DNA of 64,000 bases, taken from assembly GCF_017355915.2 (NCBI RefSeq), contig NZ_JAFEUV020000013.1:62001-126000 (forward strand), read 5' to 3'. Each line of letters begins with the position of its first letter. Position 1 is the first letter of the stretch. Shown piece after piece: positions 40,949 through 45,195 of this stretch. The notes below the pieces were generated by a model. The model worked only from the letters and a program-made list of their open reading frames with translations, was not told the origin of the DNA and made no database searches. The position numbers and the translations under genes are program-made. This DNA comes from Telluribacter roseus. Lineage in GTDB: Bacteria; Bacteroidota; Bacteroidia; Cytophagales; Spirosomataceae.

Positions 40949-41062
40949 GAAAGGATTATAACTCAACTGCCACTTCTACTTTAATTCAGGTGAAAGTACC
41001 CATATAGGTACACTATTTTAACGCTATCTGAGTGGAGCGCTGGAAAGTTGTTGTTATAATAT

Positions 41063-41106
41063 TTGCAACGAGGTTGCATAAAATATACTTTTGCAACGTT
41101 GTAGCA
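41063..41106 (+). promoter_or_regulatory. TonB-receptor promoter overlapped by two Zur-type palindromes
   Basis: TTG at 41063-41065, 20 bases, TACTTTTG at 41086-41093. Site A, TGCAACGAGGTTGCA (41064-41078), is a perfect 6-3-6 repeat covering the -33 box. Site B, TGCAACGTTGTAGCA (41092-41106), matches with one change and touches the -7 box. The same arms occur at 44755-44769. This is the placement expected for a metal-responsive repressor. Confidence 0.75.
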
Positions 41107-41110
41107 AAAT

Positions 41111-43474
41111 ATGATGGCGATTACCCACGATAGATATAAAATAGAGAAAAGAATTTGGGCGGTAGCGTGCTACCTGCTACTGGTATTTTTTGTTCCGGCC
41201 GCATATGCTCAGAGGCAAGGGTGTGACTGCTTTGTGAAGGGAGTCGTGCGTGATAAGCATACCGGACAGCCTATTCCGGGAGCTACGATAGCCGTGCTGG
41301 GAGAAAATAAAGGTGTCTCTACGGATATGAACGGTCGCTATCAGATAGAGCGGCTGTGCCCCGGTCAGTACGAGCTGGAGTGCCGGATCATAGGCTACCA
41401 GCCTTATACCGAGACCATTGACCTTATAGCAGGTCATGAGGAAAACTTTGCGCTGGCCGAAGACGAGATCCACCTCAAGGACGTGGAGATTACGGCTCAT
41501 CGTACCGACGCTCCCATCTCACAGCCGATAACTACCCTTACCGGTAGCGAACTGGCCCAGACGCGCGGTCAGTCACTGGCAGAGAGTCTGAAAGGTATTA
41601 CGGGCGTAACTACCCTCCAGACCGGATCAAACATTGCCAAGCCCGTTATTCATGGCCTCCATAGCAACCGCGTGCTGATCATGAACAACGGCGTACGGCA
41701 GGAAGGGCAGCAGTGGGGGTCGGAGCACGCTCCGGAGATAGACCCCTTCATAGCTACCCGCGTAACCGTAGTCAAAGGGGCCGCTGGTGTTCGCTATGGT
41801 TCTGACGCTATCGGGGGAGTGATCCTGGTGGAACCCGAGGAGCTCCCCATTGGGAAGCCCCTCAGCGGAGAGCTCAATACCGTAGGCTACTCCAATGGTC
41901 GCCAGGGCGTAGTATCCGGTACCCTACAGGGAGGCGTCAAGGGAATAGAGGAGCTAGGCTGGCGGGCACAGGGTACCTTTAAGCGGGGCGGTAATATCCA
42001 TACGCCTAACTACTTCCTGTCCAATACCGGCATCCGTGAGCGGAACTTCTCCGTTGCCGCCGGCTATCGTAAGAAAGGGTTTGGCGCCGAAATATTCTAT
42101 AGTCATTTTGCCACCGAGCTGGGGATCTTTTCGGGTGCGCACATCGGAAGCGTTACGGATCTGCTTCAGGTAATCAAAAACAGGGAGCCACTGGTTAAGT
42201 CAGGATTCACCTACACAATTGGGCGGCCCTACCAGGATGTAGCCCATAATCTGGTAAAGGGGGAAGCCCACTACCACTTTGCCGATGGCCACCGTATCCA
42301 GTGGGTGTCGGCCTGGCAGCACAACGATCGCTCCGAATACGACCTGCACCGCCCGCGCAATGACTCGTTGGCGGGGCTCAACCGCCCCGAGCTGACGTTC
42401 CGCCTGACCACCTTCACCAACGACATTGTGTGGGATCATAAGCCCATAGCCAACAAACTGGCCGGTCAGGTAGGGATAAGTACCCTGTACCAGTACAACC
42501 TCATGAACGGTCGCCCGCTGATCCCCAACTTCGACCAGTGGAACGTAGGTGCCTTCCTGATCGAGCGCCTGGTGCAGAACGGTTGGGAGTGGGAGGCCGG
42601 TATCCGCTACGACTACCGCTACCTGACTACCTACCGCCTGGTCAACCGCGTCACACAGAGGGACGAGTTCCGCTTCAGTAGTGCCTCAGGTACTTTGGGC
42701 GTTACCCGCTCTATCAGTGAAAAGCTTTCGACCCGCCTCAATGTAGGTACTGCCTGGCGTGCGCCTAATGTGAGCGAACTATTCAGCGCCGGGGTACACC
42801 ACGGAGCCGCCTCGTACGAAGAGGGTGACCCGACACTCCGGCCCGAGCAGGCTATCAATACCGTGGCGAGCGTCGTGTATGACAATGACAAGTTTAACTG
42901 GGAGATCGGCGCCTACCACAACTACATAGCCCGCTACATCTACCTTAAGCCGCAGCCGGAGCCGATTCTTACGGTACGGGGGGCATTTCCCTACTTTCGC
43001 TACACCCAGACCGACGCCACCTTTACCGGTATAGATGCCTCACTGGGCTGGAAAATGACCGATCGCTGGTCGTGGAAGAGCAAGGCTTCGTACCTGCGTG
43101 TATATGATCAGAAGAATGACCAGTACCTGGTGATGATACCGCCCAACCGCTGGGACAACCAGCTCAGCTTCAACATTGGAGAAGCAGGGAAATGGCAGAA
43201 GCTTTTTGTTTCGGCAGGTAACCTGTGGGTAGGGGAGCAGCGACGCGTACCCGCTAACAGTGATTTTGCCCCGCCGCCACCTGCCTACTCCTTGTGGAAC
43301 TTAACGGCAGGGGGGACTCTTTTTATCACCCAAAAACAACAGGTGGAAGTAGGACTAACGGTACATAACCTGCTGGATACCGCCTACCGTGACTACCTGA
43401 ACCGCTTCCGCTACTATGCCGATGAAATGGGACGTAATATCTCGCTGAGGCTGAAATGGAGGTTTGGAGCCTGA
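41111..43474 (+). CDS. TonB-dependent outer-membrane receptor, probably for zinc
   Basis: 787 residues. Signal peptide (LLLVFFVPAAYAQ), then a carboxypeptidase-regulatory-like domain (VVRDKHTGQPIPGATIAVLG), a plug domain (SLAESLKGITGVTTLQTG; YGSDAIGGVILVEPEE) and a 22-strand barrel ending in MGRNISLRLKWRFGA. The plug HAPEIDPFIATRVTVVKGA is reminiscent of ZnuD-type zinc receptors. Two Zur-type palindromes cover its promoter, and a Fur-family gene and a MerC gene lie downstream, so uptake of zinc (or a zinc complex) is inferred. Energy would come from TonB/ExbBD encoded elsewhere. Confidence 0.87.
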   Translation: MMAITHDRYKIEKRIWAVACYLLLVFFVPAAYAQRQGCDCFVKGVVRDKHTGQPIPGATIAVLGENKGVSTDMNGRYQIERLCPGQYELECRIIGYQPYTETIDLIAGHEENFALAEDEIHLKDVEITAHRTDAPISQPITTLTGSELAQTRGQSLAESLKGITGVTTLQTGSNIAKPVIHGLHSNRVLIMNNGVRQEGQQWGSEHAPEIDPFIATRVTVVKGAAGVRYGSDAIGGVILVEPEELPIGKPLSGELNTVGYSNGRQGVVSGTLQGGVKGIEELGWRAQGTFKRGGNIHTPNYFLSNTGIRERNFSVAAGYRKKGFGAEIFYSHFATELGIFSGAHIGSVTDLLQVIKNREPLVKSGFTYTIGRPYQDVAHNLVKGEAHYHFADGHRIQWVSAWQHNDRSEYDLHRPRNDSLAGLNRPELTFRLTTFTNDIVWDHKPIANKLAGQVGISTLYQYNLMNGRPLIPNFDQWNVGAFLIERLVQNGWEWEAGIRYDYRYLTTYRLVNRVTQRDEFRFSSASGTLGVTRSISEKLSTRLNVGTAWRAPNVSELFSAGVHHGAASYEEGDPTLRPEQAINTVASVVYDNDKFNWEIGAYHNYIARYIYLKPQPEPILTVRGAFPYFRYTQTDATFTGIDASLGWKMTDRWSWKSKASYLRVYDQKNDQYLVMIPPNRWDNQLSFNIGEAGKWQKLFVSAGNLWVGEQRRVPANSDFAPPPPAYSLWNLTAGGTLFITQKQQVEVGLTVHNLLDTAYRDYLNRFRYYADEMGRNISLRLKWRFGA

Positions 43475-43540
43475 ACAAGACTACTTGTTATACATACAAC
43501 ACATCATCCTAAATCAATTTGTAATCTTAATTAACACAAC

Positions 43541-44116
43541 ATGCTTATGAAAGTAGATCGCAGAATGCTAGGCTGGGGATTATTGATGAGTGCAGCCCTG
43601 TTATTGACGGACTGCCGCAGAGCGGATGAGGTGGATCCACAGGACGAGAATGAACTCATTACAACGGTGCGTCTGAACTTCACAGAGCAGGGTACTACTA
43701 CTGCCACTACGTTTGAATTCAGAGATCCCGATGGCGAAGGAGGAAATCCTCCAACCCGTTTTGACCAGATCAAGCTTAAGCCTAATACTTCCTATAACGT
43801 GACGGTGGAGCTACTTGATGAGAGCAAGACTCCGGTGGTTGATTTGACAGATGAGATCGCTGAAAAAGCCGACGAACACCTGATGGTGTATACGGCTACT
43901 CCTGCTACGCTCCTTACGTACACCTACGGCGACAAGGACAGCCGCAACTTCCCCATTGGACTCACCGGAACAGCCCAGACGGGTACTGCCGGTAGGGGTC
44001 AGTTGAAAGTGCAGCTACGTCATCAGCCACCGGTTAATGGTACGGCCGTGAAGAACGGTATGGCTGCTCCCGGTAGCGACGATGTGAATCTGGACTTTGA
44101 ATTGATCGTAGAGTAA
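43541..44116 (+). CDS. Lipoprotein co-encoded with the metal receptor
   Basis: 191 residues. The signal ends in LLLTDC, giving a lipidated Cys at about residue 25. The rest is beta-rich with acidic patches (RRADEVDPQDENELITTV, FEFRDPDGEGGNPP) and His residues near the end. It resembles small lipoproteins found after TonB receptors in Bacteroidota and sometimes labelled periplasmic-binding-fold, but that label is uncertain. It starts 66 bases after the receptor, likely in one transcript, and may hand over or capture the receptor's ligand at the cell surface. Confidence 0.75.
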   Translation: MLMKVDRRMLGWGLLMSAALLLTDCRRADEVDPQDENELITTVRLNFTEQGTTTATTFEFRDPDGEGGNPPTRFDQIKLKPNTSYNVTVELLDESKTPVVDLTDEIAEKADEHLMVYTATPATLLTYTYGDKDSRNFPIGLTGTAQTGTAGRGQLKVQLRHQPPVNGTAVKNGMAAPGSDDVNLDFELIVE

Positions 44117-44126
44117 GCTTATTAGT

Positions 44127-44197
44127 TAGTGAATGAGAGATTGTGTGAATTGGTGAGTTATTTTCTATTCACTCATTCACCACTCACTCATTCACTA
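44127..44197. repeat. CTCATTCACT-family hairpin after the lipoprotein gene
   Basis: TAGTGAATGAG (44127-44137) pairs with CTCATTCACTA (44187-44197), 11 bp. The loop region repeats CACTCATTCACCACTCA. Located between convergent genes; may act as a terminator but lacks a U tract. Confidence 0.55.
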
Positions 44198-44611
44198 TTA
44201 AGTACAAGCCGGGCATCGGCCCTGGATCAGGAGATTGACCTCGTTGGCAAAGTAGCCATCCGGGAGCTGCACCGCTGGTATATGCACATTGGCAAGGCAG
44301 TTGGTCTGGCCGCACTCCGTGCATTTGAAGTGAATATGATCGTGGTGGTGGTCTTTTTCGGAGCAGTGGTCTTTACAAAGGGCATAGCGTACACCTTCAT
44401 CGTCCAGTACCTTATGAATAAGGCCCTTCTCGAGGAATGTCTTGAGGGTACGATAGATCGTAACGCGGTCGAAGCGCTCACCCAGGGAGTCTTCAATATC
44501 ACCATGTGAGAGGGCCACTCCCTTGTTCAGAAAAGTACCCAGGATATCCTCCCGGCAGGAAGTACTCCGCAGGTTATAGTCTTTAAGGGTTTCTCTGATC
44601 GTCTGCTCCAT
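44198..44611 (-). CDS. Fur-family metalloregulator, probably Zur
   Basis: 137 residues. A winged HTH at about residues 15-75 (SHGDIEDSLGERFDRVTIYRTLKTFLEKGLIHKV) is followed by the metal segment CKDHCSEKDHHHDHIHF. Structural-zinc Cys pairs are Cys97/Cys100 (CTEC) and Cys133/Cys136 (CPAC). Fur-family proteins repress uptake genes when loaded with metal. Context (ZnuD-like receptor, MerC protein, shared palindromes) favours zinc (Zur) over iron or peroxide sensing. Divergent from the MerC gene, whose promoter overlaps a palindrome 144-158 bases from this start. Confidence 0.88.
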   Translation of the reverse strand: MEQTIRETLKDYNLRSTSCREDILGTFLNKGVALSHGDIEDSLGERFDRVTIYRTLKTFLEKGLIHKVLDDEGVRYALCKDHCSEKDHHHDHIHFKCTECGQTNCLANVHIPAVQLPDGYFANEVNLLIQGRCPACT

Positions 44612-44754
44612 GCTACACAGGCTTTGATTGGTACGTTAATGGGGATGTTAGCTTATAAGATATACAACAGCTAAATCATCAGGTAAATTTACACTCTTCC
44701 TTTTATTTATTCTAAAATATTGGAAAATGAACGGTACGACAGAACATTTATTGA

Positions 44755-44795
44755 TGCAACAGCGTTGCAAGAGATAAAGTTTCCCATTACCTTTG
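44755..44795 (+). promoter_or_regulatory. MerC-gene promoter with Zur-type palindrome
   Basis: The perfect repeat TGCAACAGCGTTGCA (44755-44769) contains the -33 TTG (44765-44767). After 20 bases comes TACCTTTG (44788-44795). The ATG is only seven bases further, so the message is nearly leaderless. The arms are the same as at 41064-41078. Confidence 0.75.
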
Positions 44796-44802
44796 TGCTG
44801 TT

Positions 44803-45195
44803 ATGAAACCATCACCGATCCATACACACGGACGCGCTGACTACGTAGGGATAGCAGGATCGTTACTTTGTATCGTACATTGCCTGCTGACGCCTGTATT
44901 GGCAGTAGGTAGTTCTCTTACCGTCGACGACCATACCATTGCAGGTTTTCTGCACCTTGACTATCTCTTCGTACTGGTCAACGGGCTGGCTGTATACTAT
45001 GCTACGCGTGGGCATAAGTTCCCGTTGGTGAAGCTGATCCTCTGGCTGGCTTTCGGGCTATTTGCCGTTTCGATTCTGCTGGAAGGTACCGCTACGGTAT
45101 TTGTGTGGCTGGGGTATATCGGCTCAGGCGTGCTGATAGCCGGGCATGCTGTTAACCTGCTGCTATGCCGGCCCTGGATGATGGCGCACAAGTAG
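44803..45195 (+). CDS. MerC-domain membrane protein
   Basis: 130 residues, four TM helices. MerC features: GIAGSLLCIVHCLLTPVLAVGS with the Cys-x3-His-Cys metal-type motif in the first helix, and a final membrane hairpin ending LLCRPWM. MerC was named for mercury transport, but MerC-domain proteins in Bacteroidota lie next to Fur-family regulators and may move zinc or other soft metals. Its promoter carries the Zur-type palindrome. The stop lies ten bases before the convergent serine hydrolase stop. Confidence 0.85.
   Translation: MKPSPIHTHGRADYVGIAGSLLCIVHCLLTPVLAVGSSLTVDDHTIAGFLHLDYLFVLVNGLAVYYATRGHKFPLVKLILWLAFGLFAVSILLEGTATVFVWLGYIGSGVLIAGHAVNLLLCRPWMMAHK

Follow-up and report, generated by a model that had tools for sequence, protein, structure and literature searches.

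A putative Zur regulon in Telluribacter roseus with operators on promoter boxes and MerC as a conserved member

A four-gene island in Telluribacter roseus carries palindromic operators set on its promoter boxes, and we propose that it is a zinc-shortage island under a Zur repressor of the Fur family. The island occupies positions 41,063–45,195 of a 64,000-nucleotide stretch of contig NZ_JAFEUV020000013.1 (hereafter the window; 51.9% G+C; host genome 6.3 Mb, 43 contigs) and consists, in order, of genes for a TonB-dependent receptor, a lipoprotein and a Fur-family regulator, followed by a gene for a MerC-family protein that is divergent from the regulator gene. We put the probability at roughly 85% that the island, together with the other genes behind the same operator, forms a Zur regulon to which MerC belongs as a conserved member. 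ZnuD, AztD, ZigA and Zur regulons as such are already known; what would be new is a Zur regulon that has its own operator, placed over promoter boxes of the Bacteroidetes type, and MerC among its core members.

Operators on the promoter boxes of the island

All four genes, which an earlier note on this DNA had named, proved real by profile and open reading frame (ORF) evidence. The receptor gene (41111–43474, + strand) encodes a ZnuD-like protein, assigned by profile matches and a match to the ZnuD structure, in which a carboxypeptidase-regulatory-like domain is joined to a plug and a barrel. It is followed by the gene of a 191-amino-acid lipoprotein with an invariant Cys25 (43541–44116, + strand), by zur, encoding the 137-amino-acid regulator (44198–44611, − strand), and by merC, encoding a four-helix membrane protein of 130 amino acids (44803–45195, + strand). 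The palindromes that the earlier note had placed at 41064–41078, 41092–41106 and 44755–44769 are likewise present. They follow the pattern TGCAACnnnGTTGCA and have the form TGCAAC-N3-GTTGCA; the first and third are exact copies of TGCAACNNNGTTGCA and the second deviates from it at a single position. TGCAAC is the sole arm to occur twice among the 19 perfect 6-3-6 palindromes of the window. Loose matches with up to three mismatches are not enriched in the window (13 found versus 25.6 expected), so the evidence rests on the exact and near-exact copies. Genome-wide, the exact motif occurs at six places, compared with 0.37 expected for independent bases and none for the backwards pattern. All six lie upstream of a gene: the receptor gene, merC, an AztD-like lipoprotein gene (two copies of the site), a thioredoxin-reductase (TrxR)-like gene and a 116-amino-acid ORF.

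The sites coincide with promoter elements, for which passages of PMC5682007 give TAnnTTTG as the Bacteroidetes consensus. The receptor promoter (41062–41093, + strand) is composed of TTTG at 41062–41065, 20 bases and TACTTTTG at 41086–41093; the merC promoter (44764–44795, + strand) is composed of GTTG at 44764–44767, 20 bases and TACCTTTG at 44788–44795. Putative operator 1 of the receptor (TGCAACGAGGTTGCA, 41064–41078) overlaps the −33 box and putative operator 2 (TGCAACGTTGTAGCA, 41092–41106) the −7 box, and the putative merC operator (TGCAACAGCGTTGCA, 44755–44769), in the divergent zur–merC intergenic region, contains the −33 box, so that the box positions agree with those proposed earlier. 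Behind the six exact sites of the genome stand five promoters, each with a TAnnTTTG box and TTTG or GTTG 19–20 bases upstream, and in all five at least one of these boxes lies wholly or partly inside the operator; the remaining three read GTTG-N19-TATATTTG for the AztD-like gene, overlapping its operators, GTTG-N19-TACATTTG for the TrxR-like gene and TTTG-N20-TATGTTTG for the 116-amino-acid ORF. Pairs of TTTG (up to one mismatch) and TAnnTTTG spaced by 19–21 bases occur 11 times in the 128 kb of both window strands, or 0.006 times per 70 bases. Two caveats attach to the overlap: the −33 box of merC is GTTG, not TTTG, and TTTG/GTTG is partly inherent in the operator sequence. Direct overlap with the −7 box is also not universal, TAnnTTTG running into the operator at 28 of 175 distinct sites with sequence context, and no TAnnTTTG box was found for zur on its strand. 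A dimer bound on these boxes should block RNA polymerase.

The arrangement is conserved among relatives, the nearest named one by this locus being Telluribacter humicola, whose regulator is 93% identical. Receptor, zur and merC occur together by profile search in 9 of 46 loci (T. humicola, Rhabdobacter roseus and seven Dyadobacter), and all nine have an exact site before the receptor gene and another before merC; the lipoprotein was found in eight. The position of operator 1 is kept in Telluribacter, Rhabdobacter and the seven Dyadobacter, and the left half of operator 2 is largely kept in ten aligned promoters; TA--TTTG is conserved in ten aligned merC promoters. Across the ten receptor and ten merC promoters, fully conserved columns are almost confined to the operators and the TA--TTTG box. 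In Dyadobacter, a further operator, an imperfect one, lies over the −7 box of the merC promoters; the window has none there.

Within the order, the exact palindrome is found in 84 of 148 genomes (254 sites, versus 19 for a backwards control pattern), and within the class in 111 of 295. It accompanies the regulator: 81 of the 108 genomes of the order with a relative of the window regulator contain sites, versus 3 of the 40 without (Fisher 3.5e-14; 7e-7 when 21 small genomes are left out), where any match to the window protein at E 0.001, paralogues included, counts as presence. These and the other P values for the 148 genomes ignore relatedness and are generous because related genomes are correlated.

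The regulator and the genes behind the operator

Among 117 distinct exact sites inspected in 111 loci, 93 precede genes that fall into eight classes: TonB receptor (counted whenever a protein matches that of the window at E 1e-6), lipoprotein, MerC (inflated, because some loci were fetched for holding MerC), AztD-like, ZigA, TrxR-like, zur and ABC-2 permease. Several of these genes belong to zinc supply. Two COG0523 proteins behind the operator match the NCBIfam ZigA model at 1e-167 and 3e-169 (558 and 563 bits, cut-off 600). In two genomes a ZIP gene begins no more than about 60 bp from an exact site (site C283:17316 with the Zip match from 17365 in G141; site C363:5043 with the match from 5110, beside a zur gene, in G017), and in a third (G110, locus L214) the ZigA-like gene behind the site has a same-strand ZIP gene as its neighbour. 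NCBIfam AztD matches AztD-like proteins at 4e-24 and 5e-36, both scoring below the curated cut-off; the former is encoded in the T. roseus genome itself (C16:24303–25592; 85 bits versus a cut-off of 400), directly behind two exact operators 38 bp apart, and finds the solved AztD structure 6cmk at E 2e-11. In one cluster (G073, locus L218), five sites precede a Fur paralogue, a lipoprotein gene, a weakly MerC-like gene, a ZigA-like gene and an ABC-2 permease gene. Since ZigA, ZIP and AztD-like genes stand behind the operator, we read the regulator as zinc-responsive; a palindromic operator common to zinc-supply genes is one of the marks of the Zur class.

The regulator itself is a Fur-family protein (PF01475, 43.1 bits versus a cut-off of 23.1). 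In alignment, its H66 and C79 correspond to His77 and Cys88 of the E. coli Zur protein, the latter of which we take to be the cysteine of the sensory site; they are present in 61 and 60, respectively, of 61 aligned sequences, window included. That site, as described in the review PMC6103462, is made up of His77, another His, a Cys and a Glu. C97, C100, C133 and C136, which form a four-Cys structural site, are invariant in the 61 sequences; this site also occurs in other Fur-family members and is not specific to Zur. With H88, H92 and H94, nine potential ligands are thus kept in 60 or 61 of the 61 sequences. The other Fur-family gene of the genome (C3:62202–62729; L305:3703–4230), directly before an adenylosuccinate-synthetase-like gene (a label judged from the start of the sequence), lacks H66 and C79, and no exact site was found in the 8 kb read around it.

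Several observations weigh against a zinc regulon of this kind. The regulator scores 30.6 bits against the NCBIfam model of E. coli-type Zur (NF008646, cut-off 167) and by overall similarity is no nearer to Zur than to Fur or PerR; the top NCBIfam model of the receptor is that of a heme receptor family (TonB-hemin, 2.5e-41, below cut-off); 24 of the 117 inspected sites do not precede a recognised class; ZigA has no match in this genome; no promoter of the type described above was found for an ABC-2 operon behind two imperfect sites; and under a narrow profile, merC does not adjoin the closest Zur relative in 57 of 60 other loci. The regulator might accordingly be a Fur, PerR or Mur that responds to iron, peroxide or manganese, with a receptor that takes heme or a siderophore and MerC as a bystander. 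Besides the heme model, this would fit the best solved relative of the regulator, a Fur (5nbc, 2e-05), which ranks only slightly ahead of FurB (6e-05) and E. coli Zur (2e-04). Against it, the best solved relative of the receptor, whose plug and barrel are both present, is ZnuD (4rdr, E 2.9e-15), although the receptor scores only 107.9 bits against the NCBIfam ZnuD model (cut-off 950). ZigA, ZIP and AztD-like genes share the operator, and the second Fur-family gene has neither the Zur ligands nor a nearby site. On these three grounds we rejected an iron or heme locus, which we consider very unlikely. The earlier suggestion of a Zur-like, zinc-linked island therefore holds up, on the conserved ligands, the AztD-like, ZigA and ZIP genes behind the operator, and ZnuD as the nearest solved relative of the receptor; the scan for further sites that it called for returned the exact sites before the AztD-like (two), TrxR-like and 116-amino-acid genes and imperfect ones before the ABC-2 operon.

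As a Zur regulon, the island would work as follows. When zinc is plentiful, Zn–Zur dimers would occupy TGCAAC-N3-GTTGCA over the promoter boxes of merC and of the receptor and lipoprotein genes, which probably form one operon with a common transcript, and would block RNA polymerase. When zinc is scarce, Zur would release the DNA, allowing production of the ZnuD-like receptor and the lipoprotein for the outer membrane and of MerC for the inner membrane. The same operator would control the AztD-like zinc chaperone lipoprotein and the TrxR-like enzyme elsewhere in the genome. The four proteins of the island may, as the earlier note proposed, add up to a full path for metal uptake. Zur binding, repression and zinc as the effector are predicted here from sequence; the step that reaches furthest is the last, in which MerC might move Zn(II) from the periplasm to the cytoplasm by way of a membrane site made of C-x2-H-C and a histidine.

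MerC and zinc entry

The window MerC belongs to its family by profile (PF03203, 63.1 bits versus a cut-off of 27.6). Its AlphaFold2 model has four helices (mean predicted local distance difference test score 74; membrane insertion lies outside the prediction), and a fold search with this model returned nothing more telling than helical bundles at Z about 9–11. By alignment and model, the protein has a C23-x2-H26-C27 motif and H115. MerC proteins from 15 of 15 loci, that is, the window and 14 loci found by similarity of the regulator, keep C23, H26, C27, H115 and N118; this set, like a group of further MerC translations, is unbiased for C-x2-H-C, unlike another that was picked by the motif.

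Of 113 MerC matches, at least 44 have an exact site no more than 300 bp upstream; these belong to ten families and to 36 of the 82 genomes that carry MerC. Two of the 113 matches, one of them among the 44, fall under the Pfam cut-off. The count used 212 site places from 60 of the 84 site-bearing genomes and left out the site of the T. roseus genome at C1:623515, so that 44 is a lower bound. One MerC gene has sites downstream, and those precede the next gene, which is AztD-like. For some operator-bearing MerC genes, the closest regulator gene found is distant (376 kb in G114), which ties MerC to the operator itself and not just to the surroundings of the regulator. MerC is thus a widespread member of the gene set of this operator, and the earlier proposal that it works in zinc supply finds support at the level of regulation, in the exact sites before MerC genes of ten families. 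That merC stands beside every Zur relative was considered and rejected: under the narrow profile it does so in 4 of 61 loci, the window island and three genomes of one group (g5; L061–L063). A wider MerC search found other Fur-family genes adjoining MerC genes in several families.

Could MerC be a mercury-handling gene that lies here by chance? PF03203 is named for mercury resistance, and the TrxR-like enzyme, which shares the operator, has a weak match to MerA (6e-15, well short of the cut-off). Yet no protein of the genome passes the MerA cut-off (best 325.7 bits versus 454.45), the eight neighbouring proteins scanned include no mer gene other than MerC, and the operator before MerC in ten families is shared with zinc genes. 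The GCAAC motif of the MerC of R100/Tn21, which has no counterpart of His115, is replaced here by C-x2-H-C; neither this motif nor, among the eight proteins scanned, the neighbours of a mercury-resistance MerC are present. We regard such a chance placement as highly improbable.

Whether MerC under a Zur regulon also imports zinc is a separate matter, for which we see about an even chance from the sequence comparisons. Zinc is a group-12 congener of mercury and cadmium. MerC of mercury operons is reportedly an inner-membrane protein with a role in the uptake of mercuric ions, and Arabidopsis carrying a MerC fusion is said to have accumulated more cadmium, as indicated by the titles of references 11 and 21 of PMC6416403. 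In the family of the window, an ABC-3 permease (the ZnuB family) is present in none of 11 genomes, T. roseus included, a ZIP protein passes the cut-off in T. roseus alone (three others have weak matches), and MerC is present in ten. Across the order, MerC occurs in 22 of 27 genomes with neither ABC-3 nor ZIP, versus 60 of 121 others (P 0.003), where ABC-3 matches above E 1e-20 (in 12 genomes) and sub-threshold ZIP matches (in 6) were scored as absent. MerC and ZIP tend to exclude each other (odds ratio 0.09 by genome, P 2e-5 by genus, rho −0.60 by family), a signal that lies only between families and thus amounts to about 22 data points, not 148; MerC and ABC-3 are not associated (P 0.5). A stronger version, in which MerC is the inner-membrane zinc importer and replaces ZnuABC and largely ZIP in the family of the window, is tentative, at somewhat under even odds.

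Other observations count against MerC as the importer. The T. roseus genome carries a ZIP gene, so zinc could enter by a route other than MerC. It also has an ABC transporter with two DUF3526 permeases behind two one-mismatch sites (C7:174812 and C7:174829, 17 bp apart). ZIP genes of other genomes stand behind the same operator, and within families MerC and ZIP show no sign of replacing each other (both occur in 24 genomes, versus 23.8 expected). In a second scheme, the regulon would be that of a Zur but zinc would cross the inner membrane through the ABC-2 (DUF3526) or ZIP transporter, and MerC would do another job, such as handing zinc to a partner protein or limiting the uptake of toxic cadmium or mercury. 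Exact sites before such ABC-2 permeases in two other genomes (G073 and G127) fit this scheme, and so does Caulobacter, in which, according to passages of PMC4176598, Zur controls the ABC-2 system znuGHI beside a receptor. On the other side, the operator precedes MerC more often than ABC-2 permeases in the loci inspected. In one genome (G072, L219) it precedes a merC whose end overlaps the start of zigA, and in another (G016, L313) the order is site, zur, merC and ZigA-like gene, a placement that resembles that of ZIP beside ZigA in L214. The ABC-2 or ZIP scheme is tentative as well, and we hold it at rather less than even odds.

In the literature found, MerC is treated as a mercury transporter; the operator that precedes it in ten families suggests some other everyday role and makes it a testable candidate for zinc entry in bacteria without ZnuABC and mostly without ZIP. 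If MerC is indeed an importer, the MerC of mercury operons would have branched off, as a handler of soft metals, from an ancient protein of zinc supply, its C-x2-H-C having been exchanged for mercury-type cysteines in resistance operons.

Related systems and further genes of the regulon

Zur regulons of Proteobacteria, Actinobacteria and others, as described in PMC6103462, share with the window a Fur-family sensor with a His/Cys sensory site and a four-Cys site, and palindromic operators that control a TonB receptor, a COG0523 GTPase and transporters. They differ in that the window has TGCAAC-N3-GTTGCA on TTTG/TAnnTTTG boxes and counts MerC and the 191-amino-acid lipoprotein as members; the review does not mention Bacteroidetes or AztD. 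Passages of PMC4176598 on the Zur regulon of Caulobacter crescentus list the znuK/L/M receptors, znuGHI and zrpW–zrpX. The likeness extends to receptors, an ABC-2 system, an uncharacterised membrane protein beside a COG0523 gene, and operators that overlap or lie between promoter elements, but the operator is another one and zrpW has six predicted helices. ZnuD is by sequence the nearest solved relative of the window receptor, which lies far below the NCBIfam cut-off and has the carboxypeptidase-regulatory-like domain as an N-terminal extra. MerC of the mer operons (Tn21, plasmid R100) shares its family, by name and alignment, with the window MerC and is likewise a small membrane protein; it belongs to a mer operon and has GCAAC, whereas the window MerC has a Zur-type operator, C-x2-H-C and the invariant His115. 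AztD of Paracoccus denitrificans, described in passages of PMC5387054, has a distant homologue under the same operator in T. roseus, which falls below the NCBIfam cut-off and lacks an ABC-3 permease partner in this genome. Among the matches listed from an open-access library, none reports this operator or a zinc regulon that includes MerC, most subscription papers and regulon databases such as RegPrecise being outside the search; the parts of PMC6103462, PMC5387054, PMC2770081 and PMC11960050 available do not mention MerC, nor do the passages of PMC4176598, outside which there is one text match.

The operator lets the zinc regulons of the order and its relatives be read from sequence, and it names further putative members, among them the 191-amino-acid lipoprotein and the TrxR-like enzyme. 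The lipoprotein belongs to no Pfam or NCBIfam family, and a search with its structure model returned nothing at E ≤ 0.001. Relatives of it have operators of their own, directly upstream, in several genomes, and in four loci (L300–L303, two of them titled Saprospiraceae) they lie upstream of zur, with a receptor in between in two. The TrxR-like gene follows an exact operator at C1:623515 by 49 bp and encodes a 302-amino-acid enzyme (C1:622558–623466; L304:3059–3967, − strand) with a Pyr_redox_2 domain and a match to NCBIfam TrxR at 2e-27, below cut-off. Its relatives stand behind 15 of the 117 inspected sites, and one further site is shared with zur.

One single-mismatch site, at C11:105084, falls within a gene, and we discounted it as a chance match. 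The ABC-2/DUF3526 operon (C7:174812–178526, sites included) is reminiscent of Caulobacter znuGHI. Small secreted proteins of 137 and 135 amino acids (L218:4103–4516 and L232:2983–3390), the one scanned having no family, are encoded divergently from weakly MerC-like genes, with which their genes share an operator. The exact operator at C7:232082 lies 145 bp before the 116-amino-acid ORF (C7:232082–232592, operator included), which has no known family. In G127, a site precedes the gene of a 374-amino-acid secreted protein (L229:7780–8904); because the two start regions look similar by eye, the ORF may be a shortened copy of a gene of this type.

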